Shown: positions 3,091-19,533 of the stretch, in pieces
How positions within the stretch are numbered: the first letter of the stretch is position 1
Layout: every line of letters begins with the position of its first letter
From: Clostridia bacterium
GTDB taxonomy: Bacteria; Bacillota; Clostridia; Oscillospirales; CAG-272
Direction of reading: 5' to 3'
DNA length: 42,273 nucleotides
NCBI GenBank assembly: GCA_017463125.1
Contig: JAFTPV010000009.1
Span: 1-42,273, forward strand
Made by a program: the position numbers and the translations under genes
Notes under the pieces: model-generated
What the model saw: only the letters and a program-made list of their open reading frames with translations
What the model was told of the DNA's origin: nothing
Database searches by the model: none

Positions 3091-3939
3091 TTATCTTTTT
3101 TGTCTGTACTCTGTAGGTGTGAGACCTATATTATCTCTAAACATCTTTGAGAAAAAGTACTGGTTCGGGTAACCGACCGATTTTCCAATAACGTTTATCG
3201 CAAGGTCGGTGGATGTAAGAAGCTCGCACGCCGTGTTTAAGCGGAGCTGCTTAATGTAGTTGCTGGGTGACATACCCGTAATCTGCCTAAAAAGAGTATT
3301 GTATCTTGAAAGACTTAAGTTTTCCATATCGGCAAGATCGGGTACGTAAATATCGGTATTATAATTTTCATTAATGAAGGAAATGGATTTGCTAAGCAGG
3401 CTTTTTGCCTTCTGAACGCTTACGCTTCTTTTTGCTAAGGAGAGAAGAAGTCTGTCAAAGAGTATGGACAGCTCGCGGTCACGGAATTTATCATTACGGA
3501 CAAACGTACTGAAAATATTATTATAGCGAGAGTTTATCGCGTTATCGTGATTTATGCTATTAATGTCCGGAAAGACCTTGAACTCATATTGCTTAATAGC
3601 CTTCTCTGCATCAGAGCCGGAATAATGAATCCAAAAGCACTCTATCACATCACCTGGCTTGTGATAATAGTAATACTTACAACCCGGAGGAAAGAAAATA
3701 AACGTTCCCGAAGTATATCCGTAATCCGTACCGTGACGCCTCACCCAAAGAGTTCCCGCCGTTACGTAAAGCAGATACCAGTCATCTCGGGACCTTTCAT
3801 TATGAGTTATATACTCCTCGTTTGTTGCCGTAATTCCGGCACAATTTATAACGAAAGGCATGTCCTGACTTATTCTGTTACATCTATTCAGATGATACAT
3901 TTCGTTGTCCGGATATGAAAAATAGCTTACTGAGAGCAT
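3091..3939 (-). CDS. AraC family transcriptional regulator with N-terminal cupin sensor, 282 aa
   Basis: The N-terminal half is a cupin-like sugar-sensing domain (LLYVTAGTLWVRRHGTDY and the following FIFFPPGCKYYYY at about residues 62-95). The C-terminal 100 residues carry the two helix-turn-helix units of AraC/XylS, with the diagnostic ends GMSPSNYIKQLRLNTACELL and VGYPNQYFFSKMFRDNIG, then LTPTEYRQKR. I start the gene at 3939 and not at the upstream ATG 3969 because a strong GGAGG (3945-3949 complement) precedes the inner ATG by 5 bases. It is transcribed divergently from the secreted-protein operon beginning at 4201, and the two -10 boxes overlap, so control of that operon is very likely (inference). 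The inducer should be a sugar or oligosaccharide. Confidence 0.93.
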   Translation of the reverse strand: MLSVSYFSYPDNEMYHLNRCNRISQDMPFVINCAGITATNEEYITHNERSRDDWYLLYVTAGTLWVRRHGTDYGYTSGTFIFFPPGCKYYYYHKPGDVIECFWIHYSGSDAEKAIKQYEFKVFPDINSINHDNAINSRYNNIFSTFVRNDKFRDRELSILFDRLLLSLAKRSVSVQKAKSLLSKSISFINENYNTDIYVPDLADMENLSLSRYNTLFRQITGMSPSNYIKQLRLNTACELLTSTDLAINVIGKSVGYPNQYFFSKMFRDNIGLTPTEYRQKR

Positions 3940-3988: not shown

Positions 3989-4018
3989 TTGACGCTTTTG
4001 CACAAATTATTATATAAT
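3989..4018 (+). promoter_or_regulatory. promoter of the secreted-protein operon
   Basis: TTGACG (3989-3994) and TATAAT (4013-4018) with an 18-bp spacer. The transcript would have an AT-rich leader of about 175 bases before the first start codon at 4201; I see no recognised riboswitch in it. Confidence 0.8.
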
Positions 4019-4037
4019 GAACTTGCGGATTTGTCAA
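4009..4037 (-). promoter_or_regulatory. promoter of the AraC - NIF3 transcript
   Basis: On the minus strand TTGACA (4032-4037) and TATAAT (4009-4014) are 17 bp apart. The -10 box overlaps that of the divergent plus-strand promoter, so only one polymerase can occupy the site at a time. Confidence 0.85.
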
Positions 4038-4200
4038 TGTTTTTTGAAATAAAAGCTGAAAACAAAATTTTTTAAGAATATTATGCCCTATTAAACTATG
4101 AGTAAAAATAATTAAGAATTTTAATTTTTTAGGTGCGGTATTCAATTTTTATCCGTGATAATCAACACATTATTACTAAAAGGAAGGAGAACAAACGGTT

Positions 4201-4353
4201 ATGTTGGAAAGGAGAAAACAAAATTACGAAGCTGCGGATTTAGAAATTCTCGTGCTGAATAGCGCAGATATCTTAACAACCTCCGGCTTCGACAAGTACG
4301 TTGACACCAGCACTAGCTCCTGGGTAGATCCCAACGCCGACGACTGGCGGTAA
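4201..4353 (+). CDS. small acidic peptide of 50 aa, first gene of the secreted-protein operon, unrecognised
   Basis: An ATG with AAGGAG ten bases upstream opens a 50-codon frame ending in TAA, 33 bases before the next gene. The N-terminus is basic (MLERRKQNYEAADLEI), the middle is LVLNSADILTTSG, and the C-terminal 25 residues are polar and acidic with three tryptophan/tyrosine residues and no cysteine, ending WVDPNADDWR. There is no signal peptide. The ADILTTSG core looks like a type of short peptide I associate with gut Bacillota surface-protein operons, but I cannot verify a family and give no function. Placement directly behind the operon promoter, a good ribosome site and codon use like the neighbours support a real gene. 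It could be a leader peptide, a precursor peptide or a partner of the secreted proteins. Confidence 0.7.
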   Translation: MLERRKQNYEAADLEILVLNSADILTTSGFDKYVDTSTSSWVDPNADDWR

Positions 4354-4386
4354 AACCAAAACATTATTTTAGAAAGGAAAGAAATC

Positions 4387-5952
4387 ATGAAAACAAAAAG
4401 ATTTGTTAAGCTTATGCAGCTTTTACTCGCTGCTGTGCTTACCGTATGCCTTCTTTGTGCAGTAGGCATATCATCATCGGCAACAGCCGAAAATTCACTT
4501 GAGGTCGGCGGCTCTAACCTCGAATACAGCAAATACACGCACCTGATAGTAACTCTTGACGGCACCGTACAGGACGGATACACTAAAGGTATCGCAGTCT
4601 GGGCTCCCGACGTTACGGGCGAGTTGTCCGCTGATAACGCAAGTTTCACTAACTTCACAGCAGACTACGACTCTAAAGGCGTAGAATATTACGCAACGCA
4701 GGGCATCCCCGCCTCCGAGATGGGCAAGGAATATTCTATTGCTCCTGCTGTTAAGGACGCAGAGGGCAACGTTACCCTAGCTGGCGAGATAGTTAAGCGC
4801 AGCATCACGGGCTACGTTATGGAAAGACTCGGTGACGAAAACCTCCAGAGCTATCAGGTTGACCTTTACCGCAAGCTCATTGCTTACGGCACGGCGTCCG
4901 AGGCAGTTCTTGACGGCGGCGCGCAGACCACCGTCGTTGTCACAAAGGGCGGCTACGTTGGCGAGCAGAACTTCCCTCTCGCAATAGTTGAGGGCGAAAC
5001 CGCGCTTATCCGCGCAAGCGTTCAGAACGCAGAGGGTAAGTATTTCTCACACTGGGCAGACTCTAAGGGCAATCTCCTCACAGGCGAGAGAGTTGCAACC
5101 GTTGACGTTAAGAAGGGTATCAACACCTTCACCGCAGTTTACGGCGACAAGGCAGACTCGGCTTACGGCTACTTTGCTGATTTCCAGAGCTTCGAGACTG
5201 GTAAATATAATTTTGTTATAAACACTTCATCTCTCACCGATGCACAAAAAACAGCTGGCGTTGTCGGACGCTACTTACCGCTATTCAAAAGTTGCTCGTC
5301 AGGCGCCGATATAGGTATTAAGAGTACAATTAAATTTGATAATTCTGATACCACACTCGAAGCGCTTCCTATTACAGAAGAGGACACCCTGACTATCAAG
5401 GAAAACTTGGACGGTATAAAATATCTTAATTATAACCACAGCGTTGCCGTTGGTAGTGAAGATTATCAAACTCTTATCAATCATGAGGGAGATGCAACGC
5501 TCCAGTATACTTACGAGCGCTTTGAGATGGATTTCAACATTGCAAGCTCTAGCACAAACGCTGCAACAACAATTCAGCTCAAGTTCCATAGAGATGGTAA
5601 TGGCTACGCAGGATTCCAGTTTGCGCTTGGAAAATTCGTTGATGACAACGACAACGAGTTCTTACGCATACACTACTATCCGACAGATGTAGCTTACAGA
5701 ATCATCGACATTCCCGTTAATGAAGCTAAAAGAATATTCACTATAGGAGCTGATATAGATGAAAGCGGCAATGCCAATATCTATATTGACGGTGTAAAGC
5801 TCGAGCTTGAAGGTACTTACAAGACATACACGGGAACTCTGCAAGCAGGAACATGGCATCCGGCAATCGTTCAGATAGCAATTCCTACAAACGTTACCTT
5901 TGATTATAATATCTATTCCTACGGTCTTGTAGACACCGACTTAACTAAATAA
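4387..5952 (+). CDS. secreted multidomain protein with C-terminal lectin-like (LamG/concanavalin-type) domain, 521 aa
   Basis: A Sec signal peptide is clear (MKTKRF, hydrophobic core LLLAAVLTVCLLCAVGI, cleavage near ATA-EN at residue 34). Residues 35-170 form a beta-rich domain followed by a helical segment (YVMERLGDENLQSYQVDLYRKL) that is shared with the next gene. Residues 195-260 look like a bacterial surface repeat (FSHWADSKGNLLTG ... FTAVYGD). From about 360 to the end there is a jelly-roll pattern typical of laminin-G/DUF1080-like carbohydrate-binding folds (YERFEMDFNIASS, FTIGADIDESGNANIYIDG). No dockerin, sortase or S-layer anchor is present, so it is probably released or held by a partner. 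No catalytic motif is recognised; a glycan-binding role is inferred. Confidence 0.8.
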   Translation: MKTKRFVKLMQLLLAAVLTVCLLCAVGISSSATAENSLEVGGSNLEYSKYTHLIVTLDGTVQDGYTKGIAVWAPDVTGELSADNASFTNFTADYDSKGVEYYATQGIPASEMGKEYSIAPAVKDAEGNVTLAGEIVKRSITGYVMERLGDENLQSYQVDLYRKLIAYGTASEAVLDGGAQTTVVVTKGGYVGEQNFPLAIVEGETALIRASVQNAEGKYFSHWADSKGNLLTGERVATVDVKKGINTFTAVYGDKADSAYGYFADFQSFETGKYNFVINTSSLTDAQKTAGVVGRYLPLFKSCSSGADIGIKSTIKFDNSDTTLEALPITEEDTLTIKENLDGIKYLNYNHSVAVGSEDYQTLINHEGDATLQYTYERFEMDFNIASSSTNAATTIQLKFHRDGNGYAGFQFALGKFVDDNDNEFLRIHYYPTDVAYRIIDIPVNEAKRIFTIGADIDESGNANIYIDGVKLELEGTYKTYTGTLQAGTWHPAIVQIAIPTNVTFDYNIYSYGLVDTDLTK

Positions 5953-5978
5953 TAACGATAAAGAAAGGGCAAAGAAAA

Positions 5979-7751
5979 ATGAAAACAAAAAAGATTTTAG
6001 CTATCGTGATAACCTGCCTTCTCCTTATCGGAGCGGCGGTGGGAATCACCGTTTCGGCTGCCGGAGAGCCGACAGTCAGCATTCACACAGCGAATCTCTC
6101 CTACGAGGGCGCTGTAAGAATCCTCTATACACTTGACACATCTAACGTTGGCGGCGACCAGACTATCAAGGTTGTATTCTCTGATGACGCGGACGTTATC
6201 GCACCCGCAGTAAGCTCTGCTCTCAACGACGAAAGCTACGACTACGTAGGCGAGAAGGTCGGCGTAATGAACATAGGCGGTACGGAATATCCCGTTGTTT
6301 TGTCCGACGGCTTTGCTCCCGGTGAAATGGCAAATAAGGTTTACGCAATTCCCGTTGTTGTAAACGCAGATAACACCGTTGCGGCTGTTGGCGAGATGGT
6401 TGAGTTCTCAATCTACGACTACTGCATGGCACGCTTCGGCGGCGCTTGCACAGACGACCAGTATAACCTCTACACATCACTCCTTGACTTTGGCGCAGCC
6501 GTTCAGACTGCGGAGTGGAAATCAGGCGTAACAGGTGAGCCTACCGTTTGGGCTGACGCTTACTACGGTCTTAAGACTATGGCAGGCGACGGCACGGTTG
6601 AGGTCAAGACCTTCAGAGCGCCTACCGAGCACGATGTCGTAGCTCCCAAGGGTTACGAAGGCTTTGCATTTGAGGCATTTACCGACAAGGCAGGCACAGC
6701 TTACGAGGGCGCTGTCGGCAACAGACTTACAGTAAACGTCAATAAGCCCGGCTATACATACGTTAAATATGTTTACGGCGATACCGCGATCAGCATGGAA
6801 AGCATTACTGCTACCGAGAGCAACCCGGCTACCCTTGCTAACCCCGATACATCAGTTACCATTAGAAGCGGCTCCGAGTTCTACATCGAAGGTGACATAA
6901 CTCTTGCGGCAGGAACAAACGCAACCCTTGCATTTAATCCCGACGTTACAGCAATCAATCTTGCTGAGGCTGACGGTGTTGTTACAGTAAGCGATGGCGT
7001 ATCCAGCTTCACTATGGCAAACGGCTCATCACTCAAGGTTGAGTATACCGTTCTTTCGACAACCAATCTCACAGGCGTTATCTTCTACTATGTAAACGGT
7101 GAGTACGTTGCAAAGCGCGATGTAACATCTACCGCGAATTCCTCCTTTACGGGCGTGACAGCTTCTGTTACCGCAGGCGAAATCAAGCTTGACTACGTGA
7201 CAGTTGGCGCTACCTCGAGTATAATGACTGTTAACAACAATGTAAATTACACAACAGCTACATTTGAGTATAGCGAAGACGGCAAATATATGCTTTTCTC
7301 TAAGACTGCAGCAAACCAGAGTAATGTATCAGGCAAGATTAACTTTACTTACGATGGCACAAGAACCAATCACACAGTATTTGAAGCCAAAATGAAGCTA
7401 ACGAGCTATTACTATAATTCAAGCTGGAGAAATTACATTGACGTTACTCTTCAGGTGCTTCCCGGTCAATATAACATTGCCGCTCCGCGTTTTATAATAC
7501 AGCAGACTACAGTAAGTGTTGCAGGATCTGCAACCACTCTTGATACTCCCATAGCCGACGATGGCTGGTTCGATCTAAAGATTGAAGTCATTGCGGGTAC
7601 ATCATATATAGTGTACATAAACGGTCAGTCGGTTTATACCGGTACACTCTCCAACGCTAACCAGCTGGGTTATGTATCGTTTGAACCGGGTAAAGACGGA
7701 AGCGGTTCTATTTACATCAAGGACGCAAAGTTCTACACTGTTACAGAATAA
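5979..7751 (+). CDS. secreted multidomain protein, paralogue of the preceding gene, 590 aa
   Basis: It begins with a Sec signal peptide (MKTKKILAIVITCLLLIGAAV, cleavage near VSA-AG at residue 28). Residues 29-165 repeat the plan of the preceding protein's N-terminal domain, with the helical segment CMARFGGACTDDQYNLYTSL, followed by a surface-repeat-like region ending YVKYVYGD near residue 268. The rest holds two beta-rich modules; the last (residues 420-590) has the laminin-G-like signature DDGWFDLKIEV ... YIVYINGQSVYTG and ends IYIKDAKFY. The same closing signature recurs at the end of the large lipoprotein downstream. It lacks an anchor. It lies 26 bases behind its paralogue and probably arose by duplication followed by change of the C-terminal modules. 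A glycan-binding or substrate-capturing role is inferred. Confidence 0.8.
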   Translation: MKTKKILAIVITCLLLIGAAVGITVSAAGEPTVSIHTANLSYEGAVRILYTLDTSNVGGDQTIKVVFSDDADVIAPAVSSALNDESYDYVGEKVGVMNIGGTEYPVVLSDGFAPGEMANKVYAIPVVVNADNTVAAVGEMVEFSIYDYCMARFGGACTDDQYNLYTSLLDFGAAVQTAEWKSGVTGEPTVWADAYYGLKTMAGDGTVEVKTFRAPTEHDVVAPKGYEGFAFEAFTDKAGTAYEGAVGNRLTVNVNKPGYTYVKYVYGDTAISMESITATESNPATLANPDTSVTIRSGSEFYIEGDITLAAGTNATLAFNPDVTAINLAEADGVVTVSDGVSSFTMANGSSLKVEYTVLSTTNLTGVIFYYVNGEYVAKRDVTSTANSSFTGVTASVTAGEIKLDYVTVGATSSIMTVNNNVNYTTATFEYSEDGKYMLFSKTAANQSNVSGKINFTYDGTRTNHTVFEAKMKLTSYYYNSSWRNYIDVTLQVLPGQYNIAAPRFIIQQTTVSVAGSATTLDTPIADDGWFDLKIEVIAGTSYIVYINGQSVYTGTLSNANQLGYVSFEPGKDGSGSIYIKDAKFYTVTE

Positions 7752-7786
7752 TAAAAATTAAATAATGCTTCGACATTAAATCCTCT

Positions 7787-7816
7787 ACTGCTAACATCCC
7801 TCGGGGTGTTAGCAGT
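7787..7816 (+). promoter_or_regulatory. strong stem-loop between the secreted-protein genes and the lipoprotein gene
   Basis: ACTGCTAACATCCC (7787-7800) pairs with GGGGTGTTAGCAGT (7803-7816), including one T-G wobble. There is no T-run after it, so it looks more like a processing or mRNA-stabilising hairpin, or a partial attenuator, than a full terminator. It lies 43 bases before the ribosome site of the next gene. Confidence 0.6.
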
Positions 7817-7868
7817 TCTGGACAAAGCGGTTGTTTCTTTCACAAATCCTAGTCAAATAGGAGGTATT

Positions 7869-10800
7869 ATGGCAAAAATTTTTGAAAAATCAAGGATTAT
7901 TATTTTAACACTTATGCTGGCTTTGTCTGTTTCTGCGCTCTTCTCGTGTACTGTACCGGGAAGCAGTAGCGGAACAGGCGAAGGTGGCGGTAACACGGAA
8001 GTTGACGTACCGCTCGGAACTGCGGGACTCATCTACAACTCGCAGACCGAGATTAATCTCATCGCGGCTGATTCGAGCTTCCCCGAAACGAAAGCAAGCA
8101 GTATTGCCCAGGCGTTCAGAAGAACTCTCGGCAACAGGGCGCACATAAACTTCACAGACGATATAGAAGCCCTCGAGCACGAGATTATTCTCGGCGAGTC
8201 AAACCGTGACGTTTCAAGGACTGCGTACGCTTACCTTGATCAAATCATGGAGAGCTACCACGAAGAGCACGGCGGTTACGTTCTTTATTCAGACGGCTCA
8301 TCGTTGGCTCTTGCCTACACGGACGAGGTGACAAATCATCACCTCGAGGACATAATCGCGGATCTTTTAGCTATGGCAGAGCAGACGAGCCTTGTTTATG
8401 AAGAGGGTATAGTTTCTACAAAGATATACGACCTATACAAGATTTACGAGCAAGAGGATAAGGAGAGGCAGGATGCGGCATTTGCGCTTCTTGAAGAGCA
8501 GACAAACGCCGAGGTTGCCGCTGCTGTCAAGGAGCTCTACCAGCAGACGTTTGACGACGACATTATCTCATGGCTTGCAAACCTCTACGAGCCGAGAAGC
8601 TGCATTTGTGACAATTACGTTGACGGCGTGCAGGTTTGTCTGCACCCTACGGACTTGAACGGCAATTACATTTGCTCAAACGGCGGATTTTATTACTCTA
8701 ATTCCGCAAGAAATACATACGGTTATCTGCCAGACGTTGAGTCCACGTATCAGGCTCTTGTATTCCTTGAAATGACGGGAATGCTCGCGGAGCACGAGGA
8801 CAGCTTCGGCGTATTTCTTGACGGACAGTTTAAGAGCGATATTCTTGCATTCGTAAAGGGTCTGCAAATTGAGAACGGATATTTCTACCACCCGCAGTGG
8901 ACGGTTGAGGCAACTAACGAAAACTGGGACAGAGTATCCCGTGACCTTATGTGGTCTGTCGCAATTCTCCAAAAGACAGGCGAGCGTCCTTACTACACGA
9001 CGCCCACAGGCAGTCTTACCGGAACGGGAAAGCCGAAGGCAACGTCCTCTATGCTGACAGGCAGACTTGGTAGCAGTCAGGTTCTAGCTGTTTCCAAGGT
9101 GGTTGCAACGTCGGGAGCACTTCCCTCGCATCTGCAATCGGTTTCTGCCTTTGAGCAATATCTCGCTAAATTTAAGCTTGACGTTTTTGGCAGCGGATAC
9201 GCTGCTGCAAACGAGCTTGCGGCGCAGGTTGACCAGCTAGTTGCCGCAAACAAAAACCTGAACGGCGCCTTAAAGCCCGTTCTGTTTAAGTGGTTTGAGG
9301 AAAAGCACAATCCAAAAAACGGTCTATGGCGTGACGAAACCGACTTTGACGGTCTTAATACCGCGTTCAAGGCACTGATGGTATACAGCGCGTTTAATAT
9401 GCCGTTTACTTACGCGGATAAGGCGGCAGAGAGCGCAATTTACGTTCTCTCCTCCGGTGAGAAACCCGGCCACGTGTGCGGTGTTTATAACACGTGGTAC
9501 GATATTGCGGGACTTGTCGGCAATATCAGGGCACATCACCCCGACGTAGCAAACAGAGATCTTTACGCTGACCAAATTCTCGAAAAGGTAAGAGAGATTG
9601 CTCCCACCGCTATCAGAAATACTATCAAAAACACTCTGATCTTCCGCAAAAGTGACGCAGGAAATTCCGGCTCGTTCTCATACTTTGAGGACCATTGCTC
9701 CGAAACCTCACAGGGTATGCCCGTTGCGGTAAGGAAAAACGAGGGTGACGTAAACGCGTCCCTTATCTGCTCGGGCGGTCTTGTTGACCATATCAGCAAG
9801 GCTCTCGGCGTTGACCTTCCTCCGATCTTCGGAACAAGACAGCTTGCGGAGTTTATGGACATAATCAACGCAAATACCTATTCGCTCAAGGACGTTCTTC
9901 CCGACGACGATCCTGCCGACTTTGACGACGAGGAGCTTGGTGAAAAGACGGCTCTCGTAGGTACGGCTGTTTCCAGCGGCGGAAGTGCGCTGGTTGACGT
10001 GGACCCGAAGAACCCCAACAACCAGGTTCTCCACTTCCGGTCACTCGCGAAGTCGGGCGCATGGGACGCTGTAACGATTAAAAATAATTCCGTAAAGCGT
10101 GACAACAACTGCCTTGTCTTTGAGGGTAAGTTTATGTTCTGCAAGGAAGGCACGTACAACGGCTCTACCGTTCAGTTCTATATAGGAACTATGGGCAAGC
10201 CTTCGCCCTACTTTATCAACTTCCTGATACTCGGCGATTACGTAGAAGTCTGGGAGGCATCGTCGGATGACTCGGCAAATTCATTTGACAGACTTCTCGG
10301 CAAGTTCAAGCTTGACGAATGGTTCAAGCTCAGAATTGAATATTATATGGGATATGAGGACATCGAAAACGGACTTACACCTCACGATACCGTAAGAATC
10401 AAGGTTTACACAAACAACGATCTGGTTGCGGTAAGTGCAAACTATATGGACACCTCGATGAAGAAATTCCTTGAGGGTGTCGGTTCACCGGTTGATGAGG
10501 CGAGCACTGCCCTCTTCTTCCCCATGACTTATCTTGATTTCAACGGTTATTTTGACGATTTGTATCTCGGTTACAAAACTATTCCTTACCAGTCTGAAAA
10601 CGGTACCGAGGGACTTATCATCAACGAGGACTCGAACTGTGAGCGTAAGACCTATAACTTTGATGACAATGCAGCTCCCGAGGACTTTACGATTAAGAGC
10701 GCGTCGAGATTTAGCTTCTCGGACGGTGTGCTGAAGCTGCTTGCAGGCAACGGAACGGGTACGATTACAGTTCCTACTCTTCAAACGAAGCCGCTTTCTA

Positions 10801-12467
10801 ACGTATTTGCTCTGGGCTTCACCATCCAAGTTGATTCAGCAAAGACAGGCGACGTTCTTACTATTAATTTCAAGGATCCTCATAGGAACAAAACCGTATC
10901 CTCGTATACTATGAAGTGCGTACAAACAGACAGCGGACTTGCGCTTGTTCCTGTTTACAAGGGAACGACAATGCTTAATTCAGCGGCTATACCCGTTGGC
11001 GACGGAAAGGCGCATACGCTCGAATTCGCATTCTTCGTAGACGCAGCAACGACCCTTATTTACAAGGACGGCAAGATGATGGCCGCAACCGAGCAGGACG
11101 TAATAGCTAAGTGTTATCTTTACGAAGTGGGCAGCGCTGTCATCAGCTATTCCGGCTCTGTCACAGCATCTGTTGACAATCTCTTCTGCGAGAGAAGGGT
11201 TGGCGACTTTGATGAAGAGGTAAAGCCTAGTGTAGACAGAATAACCTACACCTTCAAGGACGGCGAGCTTAAAGATCTTACAACCAACGGCTCAGTCGCT
11301 GACGGCAAGTTAAGTCTTGCAGGCGGAAAGTCGCTCTCAATTCCTGCAAACAACCGTTCAGCTTACATTTCGGCATATCAGCTATACGCGGATATTGATG
11401 CATCAAGCTTCAAGGCAAACGACTCGACGCGCGTAGCATTCGTTGACGGTAACGGCACAACGATCGCCGCAATTGATATGGTAGCTTCTAATGGAAAGCT
11501 GCTATTCTACGAGGTAGTAAACGGAGGCAGATTAAGCTCTTACGTTGCAAGCTGCGAGTATGACGACTCCTTCTCACTGATGATTAATCTCTTCTCCGGA
11601 GAAAAGGCGGTTGAGATTTACGTTGACGGAGAGGTAGTACTCGTTACGAGTATATTCAGCACTACGGAATACGGCAACGTAGCCGGCGTTAAGATTACGT
11701 CAAGCTCCGCAGTACTTGACAATATGTACCTCGACGGTATTACTCTGACCTACACCGCTCCAAAGGTTGATAAGACTACTCAGGACGATAAGGACGACGT
11801 TATAACCTACGAGTACAGCAGCCTTGGAAACTACCCCGACAGAGTCACAGCACCCAACAACATAACGCAAAACAGCAATATTCAGTACGTAGAGCGTGAC
11901 GGTGCAAATACGAAGGTACTCGTATACAAGAAGGTGCTTGAGAATTATCCCAGCGGTGTCAGATTCAAGTTCAAAGACGGTAAAGAAGAAAGCAAATTCG
12001 CATTTGAAACTGATATGAAGCTTGCGGGAACATTAGCGGCAGGAACTTGGCGAAGCCAATACGATCTTTATTTCTCTAACTCAACCGGCGGCACTCATAT
12101 TTACATTATACAGTTCTACGTCGAGAGCGTCGAGGAGTCCGGCGTCAAGAAGAAACACCTTTATATGCGTATGAACAACGGTAATGAATTAGAAAAGCGC
12201 GACTGCGGTGAAATACCCGAGGACGGATGGTTTAACATTCGCGTTGAGCTCGACGTAGGTGATAAAACAACTAATGAGCAGACCGGTTCTACGTTAAAGT
12301 TCTACTATAATGACAACCTTATTTACAGCGGAAACGACTTTGTTGGAAGCGGAACAGAGGGAGCAAAGGCTTCTCTTGGATCCGTAACGCAGATAATGCT
12401 GATACCCAACACCTCATCGACGGGTACTATCTATTTTGACAATACCGTCATTGAACCCGCAAAATAA
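7869..12467 (+). CDS. giant surface lipoprotein: GH20b/alpha-glucuronidase-like N-domain, alpha-toroid-like core, four lectin-like modules, 1532 aa
   Basis: The start is ATG 7869 with AGGAGG four bases upstream. A lipobox LFSC puts the lipidated cysteine near residue 27, followed by a Gly/Ser linker. Residues 50-190 resemble the non-catalytic N-domain of GH20, alpha-glucuronidase and DUF4838 proteins (HEIILGESNRDVSRTAY; GGYVLYSDGSSLALAYTDE). Residues 220-670 are a helix-rich domain with repeated aromatic motifs (GGFYYSNSARN, YLPDVESTYQAL, GYFYHPQWTVE, CGVYNTWYDI, SETSQGMPV, GDVNASLI) that is homologous to the whole of the next gene; it may be an alpha/alpha toroid, a fold used by many glycan lyases and hydrolases, but I do not recognise the family. 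Four jelly-roll modules follow (about 687-907, 920-1110, 1122-1294, 1310-1532). The last closes with DGWFNIRVELDV like the secreted neighbour. I infer a cell-surface glycan-binding or -cleaving protein; no catalytic residues are assigned. Confidence 0.8.
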   Translation: MAKIFEKSRIIILTLMLALSVSALFSCTVPGSSSGTGEGGGNTEVDVPLGTAGLIYNSQTEINLIAADSSFPETKASSIAQAFRRTLGNRAHINFTDDIEALEHEIILGESNRDVSRTAYAYLDQIMESYHEEHGGYVLYSDGSSLALAYTDEVTNHHLEDIIADLLAMAEQTSLVYEEGIVSTKIYDLYKIYEQEDKERQDAAFALLEEQTNAEVAAAVKELYQQTFDDDIISWLANLYEPRSCICDNYVDGVQVCLHPTDLNGNYICSNGGFYYSNSARNTYGYLPDVESTYQALVFLEMTGMLAEHEDSFGVFLDGQFKSDILAFVKGLQIENGYFYHPQWTVEATNENWDRVSRDLMWSVAILQKTGERPYYTTPTGSLTGTGKPKATSSMLTGRLGSSQVLAVSKVVATSGALPSHLQSVSAFEQYLAKFKLDVFGSGYAAANELAAQVDQLVAANKNLNGALKPVLFKWFEEKHNPKNGLWRDETDFDGLNTAFKALMVYSAFNMPFTYADKAAESAIYVLSSGEKPGHVCGVYNTWYDIAGLVGNIRAHHPDVANRDLYADQILEKVREIAPTAIRNTIKNTLIFRKSDAGNSGSFSYFEDHCSETSQGMPVAVRKNEGDVNASLICSGGLVDHISKALGVDLPPIFGTRQLAEFMDIINANTYSLKDVLPDDDPADFDDEELGEKTALVGTAVSSGGSALVDVDPKNPNNQVLHFRSLAKSGAWDAVTIKNNSVKRDNNCLVFEGKFMFCKEGTYNGSTVQFYIGTMGKPSPYFINFLILGDYVEVWEASSDDSANSFDRLLGKFKLDEWFKLRIEYYMGYEDIENGLTPHDTVRIKVYTNNDLVAVSANYMDTSMKKFLEGVGSPVDEASTALFFPMTYLDFNGYFDDLYLGYKTIPYQSENGTEGLIINEDSNCERKTYNFDDNAAPEDFTIKSASRFSFSDGVLKLLAGNGTGTITVPTLQTKPLSNVFALGFTIQVDSAKTGDVLTINFKDPHRNKTVSSYTMKCVQTDSGLALVPVYKGTTMLNSAAIPVGDGKAHTLEFAFFVDAATTLIYKDGKMMAATEQDVIAKCYLYEVGSAVISYSGSVTASVDNLFCERRVGDFDEEVKPSVDRITYTFKDGELKDLTTNGSVADGKLSLAGGKSLSIPANNRSAYISAYQLYADIDASSFKANDSTRVAFVDGNGTTIAAIDMVASNGKLLFYEVVNGGRLSSYVASCEYDDSFSLMINLFSGEKAVEIYVDGEVVLVTSIFSTTEYGNVAGVKITSSSAVLDNMYLDGITLTYTAPKVDKTTQDDKDDVITYEYSSLGNYPDRVTAPNNITQNSNIQYVERDGANTKVLVYKKVLENYPSGVRFKFKDGKEESKFAFETDMKLAGTLAAGTWRSQYDLYFSNSTGGTHIYIIQFYVESVEESGVKKKHLYMRMNNGNELEKRDCGEIPEDGWFNIRVELDVGDKTTNEQTGSTLKFYYNDNLIYSGNDFVGSGTEGAKASLGSVTQIMLIPNTSSTGTIYFDNTVIEPAK

Positions 12468-12484
12468 GCGTTGATTTATAAAAA

Positions 12485-12517
12485 TGCACTGTGGCTTTCG
12501 CTGAAGGTCACAGTGCA
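12485..12517 (+). promoter_or_regulatory. stem-loop between lipoprotein and cytoplasmic paralogue
   Basis: TGCACTGTG (12485-12493) pairs perfectly with CACAGTGCA (12509-12517) around a 15-base loop. The sequence after it is AAGGCTAATAATTTTT, so a weak terminator or attenuator is possible. The next gene has its own strong ribosome site 74 bases further on. Confidence 0.5.
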
Positions 12518-12602
12518 AAGGCTAATAATTTTTAAGGAAATATGCGAATATGCAAATCTTCATTTACATTTCGCACGGCATTTGTCTTTCGGAGGACAAA
12601 AA

Positions 12603-13946
12603 ATGACAAGAGAAGAACAGTGGCAAAAGTTTGCCGATCAAATTGGTGGCGAGGATGGACAAAGACTCGCCGAAGCATACAGAGAGTTTTACGCAACCTT
12701 TGACGATTCGCTTATTGACTGGGTAGCTAACCTTTTCGACCCCACTATCGGCGGATACTATTACTCCAACGGAGCAAGGGACAACGAGGGCTTCTTACCC
12801 GACATTGAAAGCACGCACCAGGCGCTTGAAATGTTCCGTGACCTCGGTCTTGCAGATGACTTCGGGCGCAGCTATGCGAAGGCTCTGCCCGCGTGGATGG
12901 GCGAGAGAATCGTTAAGTTCGTAAAGGATATGCAGCGTCCTAACGGATATTTCTACCATCCGCAGTGGACTATTGAAAACACTGATTCAAAGCCCCACAG
13001 ACGCGGAAGAGATCTTATGTGGGCAAACAGTATTCTTCGGAACTACGGCGTTCTGCCTACGTACGACTGCCCCGACGGAGTTAAGGGTGAGCGTCCTATG
13101 GAAAGACCTGACGTACCTGCTTCCGAGAATGGAACCAACAGCCCGAAGTCGACTTACGCCCCTCATCTTCAAGACGGAAAGGTTTTCAAAGCCTATCTTG
13201 AGAAAATGGACTTCGCGAAGAACTCCTACGGTTGCGGAAACATGCTCGCGGCGCAGGCAAATCAGATTGCAAAAAGAAACGAGGAACTAGGCGGAGAGAT
13301 CTTCAAGGTGATGTTTGACTTCCTTGATTCTCACCAAAATACCGAGATGGGTCACTGGGATTTCAGAAAGCCCGGCACCGAGGAATTTATTCCGTATCAC
13401 GGTCAGAACGGTCTTTTCAAGATTTCATTCCTTTACAACATGGCGAAAAGACCCATTCCCAATATCGAAAAAAGCATTCAGGTTGCCCTTGACGGTATTT
13501 ATTCCGATGCTCCTGTCGGCATAGTTTGCGACGTTTATAATTCCTGGTACACCCTTTCCTCTCTTATGGGTAATATAAGAGCGACTAACTCCAAGGAGGA
13601 GGGTGAGAGAAAGATTGCGGAAATCAGAAGTATTCTTTATAAGGACGCGGTCAAGGTCATTCTTAAAACAAGGGATAAGATAAAGGATTTCAGAAAGCCG
13701 GACGGAGGCTTCTCATATCTTAAAAACAGGTCCTCGGAGCTATCGCAAAGCATGCCTGTTACTCTTCCGAATATGCCGGAGAGCGACGTGAACGCGACTA
13801 TCATTTCAGGTCCGCAGCTCATCAACTTCTCTATGGACGTTCTTGGAATTAAGGAGTACAGAGTTCCTATTTTCACAAGGAAGGAATACGAAAAGTATAT
13901 CGATATTCTTGAGAAAAACAAGGCAGCAGCCGAGTCTAAAATTTAA
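12603..13946 (+). CDS. cytoplasmic toroid-like protein, paralogue of the lipoprotein core domain, 447 aa
   Basis: The start is ATG 12603, seven bases after GGAGG (12591-12595); the frame stays open upstream but that part crosses a hairpin and has no ribosome site. There is no signal peptide. The entire protein aligns with residues 220-670 of the preceding lipoprotein, sharing GGYYYSNGARD, FLPDIESTHQAL, NGYFYHPQWTIE, RGRDLMWANSIL, CDVYNSWYTLSSLMGNIRA, SELSQSMPV and SDVNATII in the same order. The strictly shared Tyr, His, Trp, Glu, Asp and Asn residues look like a conserved binding or active site. I do not recognise a named family. Helix richness and repeated aromatic motifs suggest an alpha/alpha-toroid enzyme acting on oligosaccharides inside the cell (inference). 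It is the last gene of the operon. Confidence 0.75.
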   Translation: MTREEQWQKFADQIGGEDGQRLAEAYREFYATFDDSLIDWVANLFDPTIGGYYYSNGARDNEGFLPDIESTHQALEMFRDLGLADDFGRSYAKALPAWMGERIVKFVKDMQRPNGYFYHPQWTIENTDSKPHRRGRDLMWANSILRNYGVLPTYDCPDGVKGERPMERPDVPASENGTNSPKSTYAPHLQDGKVFKAYLEKMDFAKNSYGCGNMLAAQANQIAKRNEELGGEIFKVMFDFLDSHQNTEMGHWDFRKPGTEEFIPYHGQNGLFKISFLYNMAKRPIPNIEKSIQVALDGIYSDAPVGIVCDVYNSWYTLSSLMGNIRATNSKEEGERKIAEIRSILYKDAVKVILKTRDKIKDFRKPDGGFSYLKNRSSELSQSMPVTLPNMPESDVNATIISGPQLINFSMDVLGIKEYRVPIFTRKEYEKYIDILEKNKAAAESKI

Positions 13947-13958
13947 TAAAAAATGACT

Positions 13959-13993
13959 AATCTCCGCACTCTATGGGTGCGGAGATTTTTTTG
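13959..13993 (+). terminator. terminator of the secreted-protein operon
   Basis: An 11-bp perfect stem (AATCTCCGCAC 13959-13969, GTGCGGAGATT 13977-13987), 7-base loop, then a T-run. Confidence 0.93.
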
Positions 13994-14012: not shown

Positions 14013-14041
14013 TTGATATTGTCTTTGCTTTATGCTATAAT
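14013..14041 (+). promoter_or_regulatory. promoter of the creatininase-family operon
   Basis: TTGATA (14013-14018) and TATAAT (14036-14041) with a 17-bp spacer, preceding the start codon by 45 bases. Confidence 0.85.
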
Positions 14042-14085: not shown

Positions 14086-14982
14086 ATGCTTTGGGAGAAT
14101 TTAAGAGAGGAAGAATTTGACAAGGCCATCGAGGTATCGGGCGGGCTTTGTATCATACCGCTTGGCTGTCTTGAAAAGCACGGTCAGCATTTGCCTGTGG
14201 GTACGGATTATTTTGAGGCTATGAGTATCGTTAAGCAGGCGGCAGAGCGCGAGGAGGCGGTTGTTTTCCCTATCGGCGCTTGGGTCGGTGAGGTGTCCTG
14301 TTTTCATTCGTTTAAGGACCCCGGTACCGCAAGGCTGCGCGGCTGTGTTGGTATAAAGCAGGAAATTCTGTTAAAAATCCTTGAGGAGATCTGCGACGAA
14401 ATTGCGCGAAACGGCTTCAGAAAGATACTTATCGTCAACGGTCACGGCGGTAACAGCGCCCTTCTTAAGCATTTCTTGCGTTGTCAGACCTATGAAAATA
14501 AGCCCTACGCAACGCTTGTAACGTCGGCATTCGCATATAGTGAAATCGACCCGAGGCGGCTATACGGTACCGTGAGCGCGAGAAAAGGGGAGTTTGACTA
14601 TCTAACAAACGAGGATATGGAAACGCTGAAGCGCTTTTCAAGGACGGGTACGGGCGGAGGTCACGCCGACATACGCGAAGCATCAATGGTAATGGCTTAC
14701 GACAAGTCGCTGGTTGCACAGGACAGATACGACGCGGAGTGCGGCGAGTCTAATCACAGGACGGACTATCTCTCCGAGATAGGCGTTGAGTCAGCAAACG
14801 CGTGGCTAGCGAATTACCCTTCGTCTTACTGTGCTTACGCTCCGCACGGTGCGTCGGAGACTATCGGCAGGGCTATGACGGAAATATGCGTCGAAAGGCT
14901 CGCGAAAATTCTCTCGCTCATAAAGTCCGACGAGGACTGCGTGAGAAGCGCGCAAATGCTCCCAAAGGAGAATCCTCTATGA
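14086..14982 (+). CDS. creatininase (creatinine amidohydrolase) family protein, 298 aa
   Basis: This metal-dependent amidohydrolase family opens lactam or amide bonds; members include creatininase, MftE-type peptidases and hydrolases of cyclic sugars. The metal site is visible as PLGCLEKHGQHLPVGTD (about residues 23-39), with Glu, His and Asp ligands in the family spacing, and NGHGGN near residue 122. A later GGHADIREASMVMAY supplies the conserved Glu region. The start is ATG 14086, because GGAG at 14074-14077 stands 8 bases before it; the GTG at 14077 overlaps that site. It overlaps the next gene by 4 bases and follows a promoter of its own. The substrate is unknown; the family sits near sugar-degradation genes in many bacteria, but nothing here fixes it. 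Confidence 0.88.
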   Translation: MLWENLREEEFDKAIEVSGGLCIIPLGCLEKHGQHLPVGTDYFEAMSIVKQAAEREEAVVFPIGAWVGEVSCFHSFKDPGTARLRGCVGIKQEILLKILEEICDEIARNGFRKILIVNGHGGNSALLKHFLRCQTYENKPYATLVTSAFAYSEIDPRRLYGTVSARKGEFDYLTNEDMETLKRFSRTGTGGGHADIREASMVMAYDKSLVAQDRYDAECGESNHRTDYLSEIGVESANAWLANYPSSYCAYAPHGASETIGRAMTEICVERLAKILSLIKSDEDCVRSAQMLPKENPL

Positions 14983-15487: not shown

Positions 15488-16126
15488 ATGAAAAACGTAA
15501 TGATTTTCGGTGACAGCTATTCTACCTTTAAGGGCTACATACCCGATGGGTACGCTATATATTACGATGGCGTAAACGGAACGGATCTAAAAGACGTTTC
15601 GCAGACATGGTGGGATATTTTCGTCAAAGGATACGGACTCAACCTCGTGCTTAACAACAGCTGGTCAGGCTCGACAGTTTGCTACACCGGCAGACAAAAT
15701 CCCGAGTACGCAAGGCGCTCCTCCTTTGTCAACCGTATGGAAGAGCTGGCGAGAGATGATTTTTATAACAAAAACGAGATTGATACCTTCTTCATCTTTG
15801 GCGGTACTAACGACTCTTGGCTTGACGCAACTCTACCAGGAGAGATGAAATTTGAGGGTATTGATGATAGCGACCTTTACTTCACTCTTCCCGCTATATG
15901 CTATCTTATAGCTAGGCTCAAGGAAGAGCGCCCCAACGCTCGTATTATTTCAATAATAAATACCGAGCTTGACCCGAAGATTGCCGAGTGCTTCAAAGCG
16001 GCATCACTCCATTACGAAACCGAATTTGTCGAGTTGTGTGACATTGACAAGATGTCCGGTCACCCCACCGTAAAAGGTATGGCTCAAATAGCCGACCAGG
16101 TTTCAAATTATGTGAAAACCCATTAA
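15488..16126 (+). CDS. SGNH/GDSL-family hydrolase, cytoplasmic, 212 aa
   Basis: Block I is FGDSYSTFKG with the nucleophile Ser at residue 10, block III is FGGTNDSW near residue 109, and block V is HPTVKGM near residue 197, giving the Ser-His pair of SGNH esterases. There is no signal peptide, so it should act in the cytoplasm, as do enzymes that deacetylate imported oligosaccharides. GGAGG stands 7 bases before the ATG. It is the third gene behind the promoter at 14013, 26 bases after the glycosylase gene. Esterase or acetylxylan-type deacetylase activity is inferred; the substrate is unknown. Confidence 0.88.
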   Translation: MKNVMIFGDSYSTFKGYIPDGYAIYYDGVNGTDLKDVSQTWWDIFVKGYGLNLVLNNSWSGSTVCYTGRQNPEYARRSSFVNRMEELARDDFYNKNEIDTFFIFGGTNDSWLDATLPGEMKFEGIDDSDLYFTLPAICYLIARLKEERPNARIISIINTELDPKIAECFKAASLHYETEFVELCDIDKMSGHPTVKGMAQIADQVSNYVKTH

Positions 16127-16197: not shown

Positions 16198-19100
16198 TCA
16201 ATCGTCCGATTTGCTTTTTACAATTGTGCTTATAATCTTCTTACGAATGATGAACCAATAACAACAGAAGCCAGCGGCACCCGCTACCGCAACGCAAGCG
16301 ATTGTGATAGCTACGATAGCCCCATCGTTATTATCATTTTCGAGAGCAGGAAGCTTTCTTGTTTCAGTATAACCGCAGGAAGAGCATACTCTTCTCTCCT
16401 CCCCCTCCGTATCAACGTCGGGTTCCTTCGTTACAGCCCATTCTCCAAAGCTATGGCCTACCGCATTTACGGTATTTCCGCAAAGGTCACAAACGGTGTC
16501 CTCGCATCCGCCGGTAACGTGAGAAATCGGCGTTCTTTCATCTCCGCATTGATTACAAATTGTGTCATCACAGCTATCATACTCATGTTCATCGCAATCA
16601 AGGGTAACGTAGCGAAGCATCTGATCGACAATGTATTGATTACTTTCAGGGCTTACGTCAACGATGCTTCTGTCATTCAAGTAAAGAGTGAAGAAGGTAA
16701 GTAAATCTGCATCTATCTCACCAGCATCCACAGCAACCTTGTAATAAGACTCGGCGTCTATAATATGAACGAATGCAGAGTTGCTTGACATACTATACTG
16801 CACAAACGATCTTACGGAGGAAGTCAGCGCAACGACTTCAACCAGCTCGCCAACGTTTATCATAGCATCTCCAACCTCAAGATAAGTACCTTTCATTGGG
16901 TTGAAATGACCAAATATAATTATTTTTGTATCAGGATGATTTGAATTGATATATGAAATAAGAGCGTTGGATTTGAGCATATACTCCACGTAGCTGTAGA
17001 GATACGATTCCATTGCATAAACGATTCCGTCTGCAACAGGAATGTCTACGGAGAATATTGCCTTGTCGCCAAAAAGACTGTATAAAAGTGAGGTTTTCTT
17101 AAGAATTTTGGAAGCTACAGGGTTCGTATCAAAGGAATCTGCATTACGCGAAAGCCACTCGACTACATCTATGGAAACAGTATAGTTCGCAAATCCAATA
17201 GAGTTTATGACAAATTTTTCAATCTCGCTGCGAACAAGCTCTACCATAGGAAGCATATCTTCGTCAAGAAGCTTTGACCAATCAAGCTCAACCATAGTCT
17301 TACCTGCAAAGAGTTCATTATCAAGAACATCGTCAAGAGTAGAGTTGACTTTGTTTTTAGCAATATCCCTAAAGCCCAAAGCGGAGAGGTAAGGAATCCC
17401 ATCAATTACAGACGAAACATAACTTGTAAGAGCAGCTCTGACATCGGTAGAAACATAATTTTCAACATACGCCAATACCTGATCAACTGCAAAGCCGAGC
17501 ATTTCGTTCTCACTAAAGTCTATACTAACAAGATCTGCCTTGTCGATCTCACTGTAATCTATATTATCCCACGTGGTTTGACCAAGCTGATCCTTAGTAA
17601 GACCGATGGAATCAGCAAAAAGCTCTGCATATCCTGCGCTACCGCTACTTACCGCAACATAGTGAGAATTCTCGGTAGGCATATAATGAATACCTAACTG
17701 AATGTCTGTAATATCCTTGCCGGTCAATTTCTGGGTGTACGCTGTCCAAGTGGTATTGAATACCTCTCTGTGCCCCTCGTAGTTGGGATGAGAGAATGCA
17801 CTTTCTGCAAATTCAAGGAAAAGTGCAAAGGAAAACTTACTGCAAAGAGTACCCTCGGGAAGTCCGTTTTCCTGCTCGTAAGTGCTGAAAAATCCGTCAG
17901 GATACATCTCATTCAGAGAGAAAGAATAGCTCGAGTCAGTAAGCGACTCTTCCATAGCTTTACCAAGAACCTCTAAAAGAATGTCGGCTGCCTTGACACC
18001 TGAAAGTGCAGGATTCATAGTAACGGTAAGGTCAACCAAGCTCTGTTTTGCAGCCTCTCCGAAAACTTCCATAGCCACGTCATATGCAAGAGCGAGCATT
18101 CTTTCGTAGATTTCGTAAACAGCCCTTTGATTATCGGGAAGCTTACCGTTCTCGCCATTCTTAATGAAGTCCTTAAGATAAGTGCCATCGGCCAATGTAA
18201 TTGGAGTGAACTCCGTGTTATCGTAACGGTCGTAGTGGAAGCCGTTGTGGAAAGTCTTGACACCGTCGATAGTAGTCGCATCCTTCTGTACATCAGTTAT
18301 ATTAACAAAACCGCTTTCGCTCATTTGAGTTGCAAACATCTGCTGAACACGAGTCTTCAAAATCAACGATCCGTCAAGAACATCGAAGCAATCCTTCATA
18401 TTCAAAGGAATTGTAGAGGGATCGCCATTATAATTAGCCGCCTCATCTTTAAGGAACTCAACGTGTCCATCTTCACTTACGTTAGCAAAATAATATTTGT
18501 CCGCATAGGGAGAAAGAACAGCGGTGTAGAAGTTCGCTGCATCAACGATAATATCGAATATTTCACCAAATGGAATAACTCCATCGTATCCAGGCATAAC
18601 AATATTAAGACCATGCAGCATGCTCTGTGCGCTGATAAGAACAACCTCTGCATCGGGGTTGAGCTCAAAAATATGTTCCATAATAGAGTTAATGTTAAGG
18701 CAATAGCCAACAGCAGCGTACGAGAGGGTATCCGCAAAGTTACGAAGCATAGTCTCGGGTATACTATCGCCTACCACCTTCTTAATAACATCGATTGCAT
18801 AATCTCTTGCCGCATCGTAATATACACCAAGCTCAGGACTTATCTCGCCTAAGTCGTTAGAGAACCAGCCGCTAGCAATAAGATTAAACATATATGTACC
18901 AAAGTTGTTCATACCTGCATCGACGGTAATAAGATCCGCGTTTGCAACCGACTCCTTCGTAGCCTTACGCAGAGCGTCAAAGGCCTCTTTGGGAGTAGGT
19001 GTGTAGCTGGGGTCTGCGTTATAACCGGGAACACCTGCCTCGGCAAATCTCTGATACTCGTAAACACCGGGATAGTAGCTCCAGAAATAACTCACACCGT

Positions 19101-19533
19101 CACCGTTCATATCATAGAACCAGTTGTCCGTATATTTATCGCCGATATAGTCATCGTCAAGAAGCACGTGCACTTCCTCTGCACGCATGGAGCTTGCGGC
19201 AATTACCTCAAGATTTGTGTTATACATCTTGTTGAGCTCATCTCTGATAAGCACCGGATAGGAGTCTTCAGGGTGCATCTTGTAACCGTAGCGATTTCCT
19301 ATAGATTTTTCTGTGGGATATTCATAAATGTAGTCGTAATTATAACCATGAAGTCCGTAGCCCGCAGTGTTTGAAGCACCGAGCGCTACATAGTTAAAAC
19401 TTGTCTTTTGCGCTCCTTGCCGGCTTGAAGATAGTGTGGCAGCCATAGCGCTTACAGTCGAGCTTAAAGCACTAAAGCAAAGCGTAAAGACCGCAACAGT
19501 AGAAATAATTCTCGATAGTACTGTTTTTTTCAT
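16198..19533 (-). CDS. large membrane-anchored surface protein with tandem SGNH hydrolase-like domains, 1111 aa
   Basis: A signal peptide (MKKTVLSRIISTVAVFTLCFSAL, cleavage near residue 32) leads into an SGNH domain: block I YVALGASNTAGYG (about 48-60), block III VDAGMNNFG (about 210), block V HPNYEGH (about 583). A second copy begins with YVAVSSGSAGYAEL near residue 624 and has SIDFSENEML in place of block III, but at the expected block V only SPESNQYI, so the catalytic His appears lost. Residues 975-1060 hold two CxxC-type cysteine motifs (CNQCGDERTPISHV, CDLCGNTVNAVGH) and one more (CSSCGYTETRKLP), a repeat common on gut Bacillota surface proteins. A membrane helix (about 1070-1095) followed by RKKII ends the protein. 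It should sit on the cell surface and hydrolyse esters on a large substrate; lipid or glycan is undecided. Confidence 0.85.
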   Translation of the reverse strand: MKKTVLSRIISTVAVFTLCFSALSSTVSAMAATLSSSRQGAQKTSFNYVALGASNTAGYGLHGYNYDYIYEYPTEKSIGNRYGYKMHPEDSYPVLIRDELNKMYNTNLEVIAASSMRAEEVHVLLDDDYIGDKYTDNWFYDMNGDGVSYFWSYYPGVYEYQRFAEAGVPGYNADPSYTPTPKEAFDALRKATKESVANADLITVDAGMNNFGTYMFNLIASGWFSNDLGEISPELGVYYDAARDYAIDVIKKVVGDSIPETMLRNFADTLSYAAVGYCLNINSIMEHIFELNPDAEVVLISAQSMLHGLNIVMPGYDGVIPFGEIFDIIVDAANFYTAVLSPYADKYYFANVSEDGHVEFLKDEAANYNGDPSTIPLNMKDCFDVLDGSLILKTRVQQMFATQMSESGFVNITDVQKDATTIDGVKTFHNGFHYDRYDNTEFTPITLADGTYLKDFIKNGENGKLPDNQRAVYEIYERMLALAYDVAMEVFGEAAKQSLVDLTVTMNPALSGVKAADILLEVLGKAMEESLTDSSYSFSLNEMYPDGFFSTYEQENGLPEGTLCSKFSFALFLEFAESAFSHPNYEGHREVFNTTWTAYTQKLTGKDITDIQLGIHYMPTENSHYVAVSSGSAGYAELFADSIGLTKDQLGQTTWDNIDYSEIDKADLVSIDFSENEMLGFAVDQVLAYVENYVSTDVRAALTSYVSSVIDGIPYLSALGFRDIAKNKVNSTLDDVLDNELFAGKTMVELDWSKLLDEDMLPMVELVRSEIEKFVINSIGFANYTVSIDVVEWLSRNADSFDTNPVASKILKKTSLLYSLFGDKAIFSVDIPVADGIVYAMESYLYSYVEYMLKSNALISYINSNHPDTKIIIFGHFNPMKGTYLEVGDAMINVGELVEVVALTSSVRSFVQYSMSSNSAFVHIIDAESYYKVAVDAGEIDADLLTFFTLYLNDRSIVDVSPESNQYIVDQMLRYVTLDCDEHEYDSCDDTICNQCGDERTPISHVTGGCEDTVCDLCGNTVNAVGHSFGEWAVTKEPDVDTEGEERRVCSSCGYTETRKLPALENDNNDGAIVAITIACVAVAGAAGFCCYWFIIRKKIISTIVKSKSDD

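Follow-up and report, generated by a model that had tools for sequence, protein, structure and literature searches.

What is the function of an operon that combines lectin-like surface proteins, controlled by an AraC-family regulator, with a large domain of no recognised family that occurs both in a lipoprotein and in a cytoplasmic protein? The question is raised by a stretch of 42,273 nucleotides from the Clostridia bacterium assembly GCA_017463125.1 (Oscillospirales, CAG-272), which covers positions 1 to 42,273 of contig JAFTPV010000009.1 and is hereafter called the window. An original prediction, made without database searches, had described the operon as a glycan-capture system, with a surface platform and an intracellular enzyme for one substrate. 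Our analysis supports that idea in part and indicates that its scale was underestimated: the operon is one of many related cassettes in its genome. We see an even chance that these are gram-positive polysaccharide-utilisation-like cassettes, built on an undescribed family of toroid enzymes.

Composition of the operon

According to simple open reading frame (ORF) calls, combined with crude calls of signal sequences and membrane segments, the operon encodes, from 5' to 3', a 50-aa peptide, two secreted proteins, a lipoprotein and a cytoplasmic protein, ends in a terminator-like hairpin and is preceded by a divergently oriented AraC gene, which comes close to the set that had been claimed. The lipoprotein (7872..12467, + strand), indeed a lipoprotein by its predicted lipobox (cysteine 26) although it measures 1531 rather than 1532 residues from its ATG, consists of an N-domain, a domain that we call the core (8478..9866, +; E 8.6e-146 to the profile of core alignment A2, which includes this domain itself) and concanavalin A (ConA)-like modules. 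The module profile finds the anticipated four of these, all on the + strand, at 9906..10592 (1e-38), 10629..11195 (5e-12), 11205..11756 (4e-19) and 11778..12455 (4e-30). The cytoplasmic protein (12603..13946, +; 447 aa from its ATG), in which no signal sequence is seen, is 35% identical to the lipoprotein core in A2. Secreted protein 1 (4387..5952, +; 521 aa, with a signal-like N-terminus) and secreted protein 2 (5979..7751, +; 590 aa) are related to each other (phmmer 9e-12), as had been proposed; the lectin-like ends attributed to both are present in one of them only, because the module profile finds none in protein 1. In protein 2, it detects a C-terminal ConA-like module (residues 396-589, E 2e-19) and a weaker one (residues 250-413, E 4e-6).

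An expanded gene family of one gut genus

The source genome, which is only 1.9 Mb in size, contains 31 matches to the core, namely 16 long forms (more than 600 aa) and 15 short forms, with a combined length of 31,727 aa or about 95 kb; this amounts to about 5% of the genome, a total that is slightly too long, given that the ORFs were started at the first start codon. One relative contains 44 core matches, with split genes counted apart. Such an investment by a small gut genome and by its relative implies that the core family is probably under strong selection.

The core is rare outside its genus. Within the genus, when the best 25 candidates or fewer were scored per genome, the family was found in 20 of the 69 genomes, including 8 of the 22 of good quality. 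In the order, 8 of 394 genomes match the core, five of these by part of the domain only, and in the phylum, 3 of 398; the source genome is counted in both. A scan of genome contigs yielded 122 related stretches, 65 loci of which were kept; the records are Clostridia and Oscillospiraceae metagenome-assembled genomes (MAGs), many with titles referring to deer or goat hindgut. The relatives' loci analysed here come largely from MAGs. Distant core homologues outside the genus (L219:584-1489:-, L220:8688-9779:- and L218:5703-6866:-) are each the single core gene at their place, and the one in L220 adjoins an exported protein with a ConA-like module.

Co-inheritance of the cassette genes

A survey of gene neighbourhoods, named in advance as a test by which the prediction might be refuted, showed that the genes do travel together. 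The counts are based on 161 distinct core proteins (87 long and 74 short), from which those at the ends of loci were excluded. A long form is encoded within two genes on the same strand for 51 of the 62 short forms, and a short form for 51 of the 71 long ones; 43 of the 71 long forms have a secreted-family gene at this distance. The commonest neighbours within three genes of a core are members of the secreted family (61 distinct proteins) and AraC regulators (36 distinct), compared with 6 for the next clusters. The predicted arrangement, in which AraC control covers a surface form and its intracellular partner, is well supported and recurs, with 13 adjacent short/long pairs in the source genome alone.

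The short and long members of a pair also tend to diverge together: the tree distances between cores of the two forms correlate with a coefficient of 0.68 across 49 pairs and of 0.62 across the 13 pairs of the source genome (0 of 2000 permutations as high in either case), and less strongly in two relatives (0.43 for 16 pairs, 17 of 2000 permutations; 0.35 for 12 pairs, 59 of 2000). The two forms do not separate into two clean clades (the best split reaches 69%), and the nearest long form is the partner of the same pair for 11 of the 49 short forms. Thus, the pairs seem to duplicate together, and one form may at times arise from the other.

Long and short forms differ in their predicted localisation. 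The lipobox cysteine is invariant among the 16 long forms of the source genome, and a crude lipobox pattern is present in 69 of the 87 long forms analysed; several of the other 18 start directly with the core and look cytoplasmic. As read from such sequence features, the long forms carry a lipobox or signal and the short forms have none. ConA-like modules are detected in 82 of the 87 long forms, in numbers from 0 to 7 per protein, and in 48 of the 61 secreted proteins. A separate arrangement is seen at L227:9915-18829, where four core genes stand in tandem, each with a ConA-like module after it and seemingly with no signal sequence; beside this array (L227:2799-7531) lie four esterase-like genes that resemble one another, and one of these has matches to GDSL_3 and GxDLY.

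The peptide of the window (4201..4353, +; E 9e-13 to the peptide-family profile) belongs to a family in which a Y...D[IV][IV]T[TA]S part is conserved and the tail, rich in Gly, Asp and Ser, usually ends near a Trp. Among the 51 distinct members in the analysed loci, 49 are encoded directly upstream of a secreted-family gene (median gap 38 nt), and in the source genome 11 of the 12 copies sit in cassettes. We nevertheless reject the peptide as a cassette-specific factor, given that relatives exist in genomes without cores. Peptide-like small ORFs are found in genomes of the genus and the order, some of them devoid of the core, upstream of other exported proteins (L242, L245, L248, L250, L252, L260), and one precedes what we read as a GH29-like enzyme. 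At 20 such loci elsewhere that were examined, a secreted-family gene lies downstream in 3, and several had no ORF in reach.

Distant relationships and conserved residues of the core

As the original prediction held, the core is unrecognised: searches of Pfam, NCBIfam and PDB sequences returned no significant match, and our literature search surfaced no description of the family. Below the Pfam thresholds, its matches lean towards alpha-toroids, with 8 of the 67 members scanned matching PF00432 (E 0.011 at best); single weak matches to SQHop, TED and LANC also occur among these 67, amid many unrelated single matches. When six distant core homologues were scanned, one (L124, itself related to the core profile with E 2.7e-5 over about 110 positions) scored above the cut-off of SQHop_cyclase_C, one scored below it and four had no toroid match. 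Comparison of profiles points in the same direction, given that the first part of the core aligns with 19 squalene-cyclase-like proteins over 97 columns with a probability of 81.8 (E 1.1e-5); the value for four true cyclases is 10.6 (E 0.0029), and those for the GH88, GH20b and ConA-like controls are 0.1 each, so that a similarity to GH88 was not found. These comparisons used 23 of the 30 fetched SQHop loci and 12 of the 20 GH88 loci, and their E-values refer to single comparisons. The only recognisable distant kin of the core thus appear to be squalene-cyclase-like alpha-toroids.

Class II cyclases possess the acid motif DxDD; this motif is missing in the core, where LPDIEST aligns in its place. 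A different set of polar residues is conserved, in both forms of the core: D67, E69, H119, R133, R136, D137, K273 and N313 (short-form numbering) are present at frequencies of 0.89 to 1.00 in 86 long and 71 short cores. Judging from these sequence patterns, the core is probably an enzyme on an alpha-toroid fold.

Glycan context

The case for a glycan substrate is made by the context of the core and not by the core itself, that is, by the ConA-like modules, AraC control and glycoside hydrolase (GH) or esterase neighbours at a minority of loci. In the source genome, cassettes are bordered by three GH20, two GH39, one GH2, one DUF4838 and one GH43 gene (the last being the third gene away), and one cassette of a relative is bordered by a GDSL_3/GxDLY esterase gene; overall, GH20, GH39, GH2, GH43 and esterase genes adjoin a minority of cassettes. 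Three of the seven GH20 matches of the source genome border a cassette.

The ConA-like modules themselves are distant from characterised ones: the secreted-family profile weakly matches levanase modules in the PDB (4azz with E 0.0012; 4b1l and 4b1m, up to E 0.0022), and Laminin_G_3 matches 3 of the 16 long forms of the source genome (best 0.0011). The N-domain of the lipoprotein (7956..8477, +), described originally as GH20b-like, may be so, given one weak profile comparison (hhalign probability 70.6, E 3.9e-5 against 28 GH20b sequences; 28 of 30 fetched GH20b loci and 62 of 87 N-domains used); sequence searches of Pfam and PDB gave no significant match that would corroborate it. The GH20 catalytic domain PF00728 does not occur in the window lipoprotein, nor is it among the families listed, at E 0.01, for the 16 long forms of the source genome.

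The same module profile that recognises the surface proteins also finds an N-terminal ConA-like module in four distinct AraC proteins (7 of 69 HTH-bearing rows, duplicates included), namely L024:3597-5099:-, a 486-aa gene product in L106, L235:2778-4262:- and L236:12682-14211:+. One of these fusions, in the source genome, is located at a cassette that is followed by GH20C, GH2 and GH43 genes. It is possible that these proteins are cytoplasmic sensors of the lectin type.

As had been noted originally, the operon includes no GH, polysaccharide lyase, SusC/D or transporter family in Pfam and NCBIfam scans of its proteins. With respect to transport, none of the 10 PF00528 ABC-permease matches of the source genome adjoins a cassette, and a crude hydropathy scan within six genes of its cores found six multi-membrane proteins in six different loci, none of them in C9. 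In relatives, an ABC-ATPase cluster has 6 members near a core and an ABC-permease cluster 3, none from the source genome in either (the names are our reading of the sequences); transporters thus lie at a minority of the relatives' loci, outside the recurring cassette.

A proposed mechanism and its alternatives

These observations can be accommodated by the following scheme. The secreted proteins and the ConA-like modules of the lipoprotein would retain a complex glycan on the outside of the cell, where it would be cut by the lipoprotein core, which is probably an enzyme with the fold of an alpha-toroid. The fragments would enter the cell via an importer encoded elsewhere and be trimmed further by the cytoplasmic core, and the AraC protein would sense a product and activate the operon in opposition to its own promoter, which overlaps that of the operon. 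The roughly 13 cassettes of the source genome would have arisen by the duplication of pairs, and each of them probably serves a different linkage or decoration. The catalytic activity, the glycan nature of the substrate, its import and the identity of the inducer are the steps that we infer. A more ambitious version, which we put forward tentatively and regard as somewhat less than an even bet, is that the core represents a new class of glycan-active enzymes on a squalene-cyclase-like toroid, which has replaced the usual families of carbohydrate-active enzymes in one uncultured gut genus, with about 13 duplicated outer/inner pairs in the source genome, some of them switched by an AraC protein that senses through the same kind of lectin-like module as the one that holds the substrate outside. 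The single substrate originally envisaged is questionable at the level of the whole genome, whose numerous diverged pairs point to more than one substrate or variant.

Several observations weigh against a glycan-active cassette. The core matches no known glycan enzyme, and its apparent toroid kin are, to our knowledge, a group not known for glycans; a match of the core to a non-glycan family had been named as grounds for abandoning the original prediction, and this similarity tells partly against it. There is no transporter in the cassette. The association of the two forms is incomplete as well, given that, away from locus ends, a short form is missing within two genes of 20 of the 71 long forms, and a long form is likewise missing near 11 of the 62 short ones. 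Finally, the 52 near neighbours that were scanned include many housekeeping genes, and the GH20, GH39 and GH2 genes number at least 6 among the 25 of 82 families listed, a count that comes without a background rate.

Among the alternatives, we regard as unlikely, although deserving of consideration, the possibility that the core is a non-catalytic, binding toroid, in which case the lipoprotein would be purely a capture platform, the cytoplasmic form a sensor or carrier, and GH enzymes encoded elsewhere would do the cutting. The replacement of the DxDD motif by LPDIEST and the GH genes next to some cassettes are compatible with this possibility, but the near-invariance of about ten polar residues in both forms, across 157 aligned cores, appears to exceed what binding by itself usually demands, and most cassettes have no adjoining GH gene in the part seen. 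The absence of DxDD also bears on the idea that the toroid is an enzyme for terpenoid or steroid substrates, for instance saponins from plants or compounds derived from bile, and that the lectin-like modules hold the sugar part. The profile similarity to squalene-cyclase-like proteins, the weak one to true cyclases, the alignment of LPDIEST at the DxDD position and the herbivore hosts named in several record titles are in line with such a role; however, the motif itself is absent, the recognisable neighbours are sugar enzymes and no terpenoid gene is listed among the recurring neighbours, and we consider this explanation improbable.

The range from 0 to 7 repeat modules per long form and the variation in copy number across the genus, from none to dozens, might instead be those of a surface-adhesin family that varies through recombination or copy-number change and has no catabolic role. 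This would explain neither the cytoplasmic copies beside most of the scored long forms nor the AraC genes near so many cores, and it receives very little weight from us. Least credible of all is a peptide-modifying system, in which the 50-aa peptide would be the precursor and the cytoplasmic core, with a fold akin to those of prenyltransferases and LanC, the modifying enzyme. The recurrence in cassettes of a peptide whose first part is conserved and whose Gly/Asp/Ser/Trp tail varies, a single sub-threshold LANC_like match and several Prenyltrans matches of the core speak for it; against it, similar peptides precede other exported proteins in genomes that lack the core, the peptide goes with the secreted gene and not with the core, and a secreted core would miss an intracellular precursor.

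If the core is indeed a glycan enzyme, the degradation of glycans gains a further fold class, and a niche of uncultured Clostridia in the guts of herbivores would find its explanation. Moreover, attempts to match sequence to substrate could draw on dozens of natural outer/inner pairs, and the AraC-lectin fusions might directly reveal what the inducer is.

Comparison with known systems

The passage that defines a gram-positive polysaccharide utilisation locus, or gpPUL (PMC5320581), asks for one or more polysaccharide-degrading enzymes, for a transcriptional regulator and for a carbohydrate transport system within the locus. The cassette resembles a gpPUL in its AraC-type regulator, which scores above Pfam cut-offs and thus supplies the regulator that the passage calls for, in the combination of surface and intracellular parts and in the GH genes beside some copies. 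It differs in having neither a transport system nor a classified degrading enzyme, and in that paralogues of a single protein serve outside the cell as well as within it, in pairs that recur about 13 times. Thus, the cassette would work like a gpPUL but, by the wording of that passage, falls outside the definition because the locus has no transport system. Unlike in the polysaccharide utilisation loci of Bacteroidetes, a SusC/SusD pair was not found among the proteins of the window operon.

With the alpha-toroids of the squalene-cyclase and prenyltransferase families (PF13243, PF00432), the core shares the profile similarity over about 97 columns and, in our reading, QW-like repeats, but it lacks DxDD, scores below the Pfam cut-offs and exists in a secreted lipoprotein form with lectin-like modules. 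The relationship to GH20 beta-hexosaminidases is limited to the resemblance of the N-domain to GH20b and to the GH20 genes next to three cassettes of the source genome, whereas the catalytic domain is not part of the window lipoprotein. The ConA-like modules weakly resemble CBM66 and the levanase modules through the secreted-family profile but are distant from them, are repeated up to seven times per protein and are also fused to some AraC regulators.

Control sites and flanking genes

The AraC-family regulator (3091..3939, - strand) scores 72.8 bits for HTH_18 (cut-off 33.6) and 39.5 bits for AraC_binding (cut-off 21.1), and is above the Pfam cut-off of HTH_AraC as well; the 'divergent' of the original description thus applies to its orientation only. 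Its gene is preceded by a promoter-like site, TTGACA-17-TATAAT (4009..4037, -), with 12 of 12 consensus bases, and the operon by another, TTGACG-18-TATAAT (3989..4018, +), with 11 of 12. The -10 boxes of the two overlap, as had been asserted, by 2 nt. The scan found 7 such sites in 601 bases, compared with 2.1 (sd 1.3) in shuffled sequences. At the other end of the operon, a hairpin of 13 pairs followed by a T run (13959..13987, +) is terminator-like; the terminator scan returned 8 sites versus 7.8 in shuffles, and this hairpin stands out solely by its length and place.

Another RNA hairpin, of 13 bp and without a T run, is located in the gap from the second secreted gene to the lipoprotein gene (7787..7816, +; z -6.57 for 7752-7871, equalled in 0 of 200 shuffles). 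A 45-nt window folding at -14 kcal/mol or below is found in 22 of 25 secreted-to-core gaps and in 4 of 26 short-to-long gaps, with intermediate frequencies in long-to-short (14/24), short-to-secreted (9/17) and long-to-secreted (7/13) gaps. Because of these intermediate values and of differences in gap length, we take the hairpin as a tendency of secreted-to-core gaps and reject it as their exclusive mark, given that other kinds of gaps fold too. It could serve staged expression within the operon.

Further along the window, a 1111-aa protein with sub-threshold GDSL matches only is encoded on the opposite strand (16198-19533). Downstream of the operon lie a promoter-like site (14013-14041), a creatininase-family gene (14086-14979) and a GDSL-like hydrolase gene (15488-16126).

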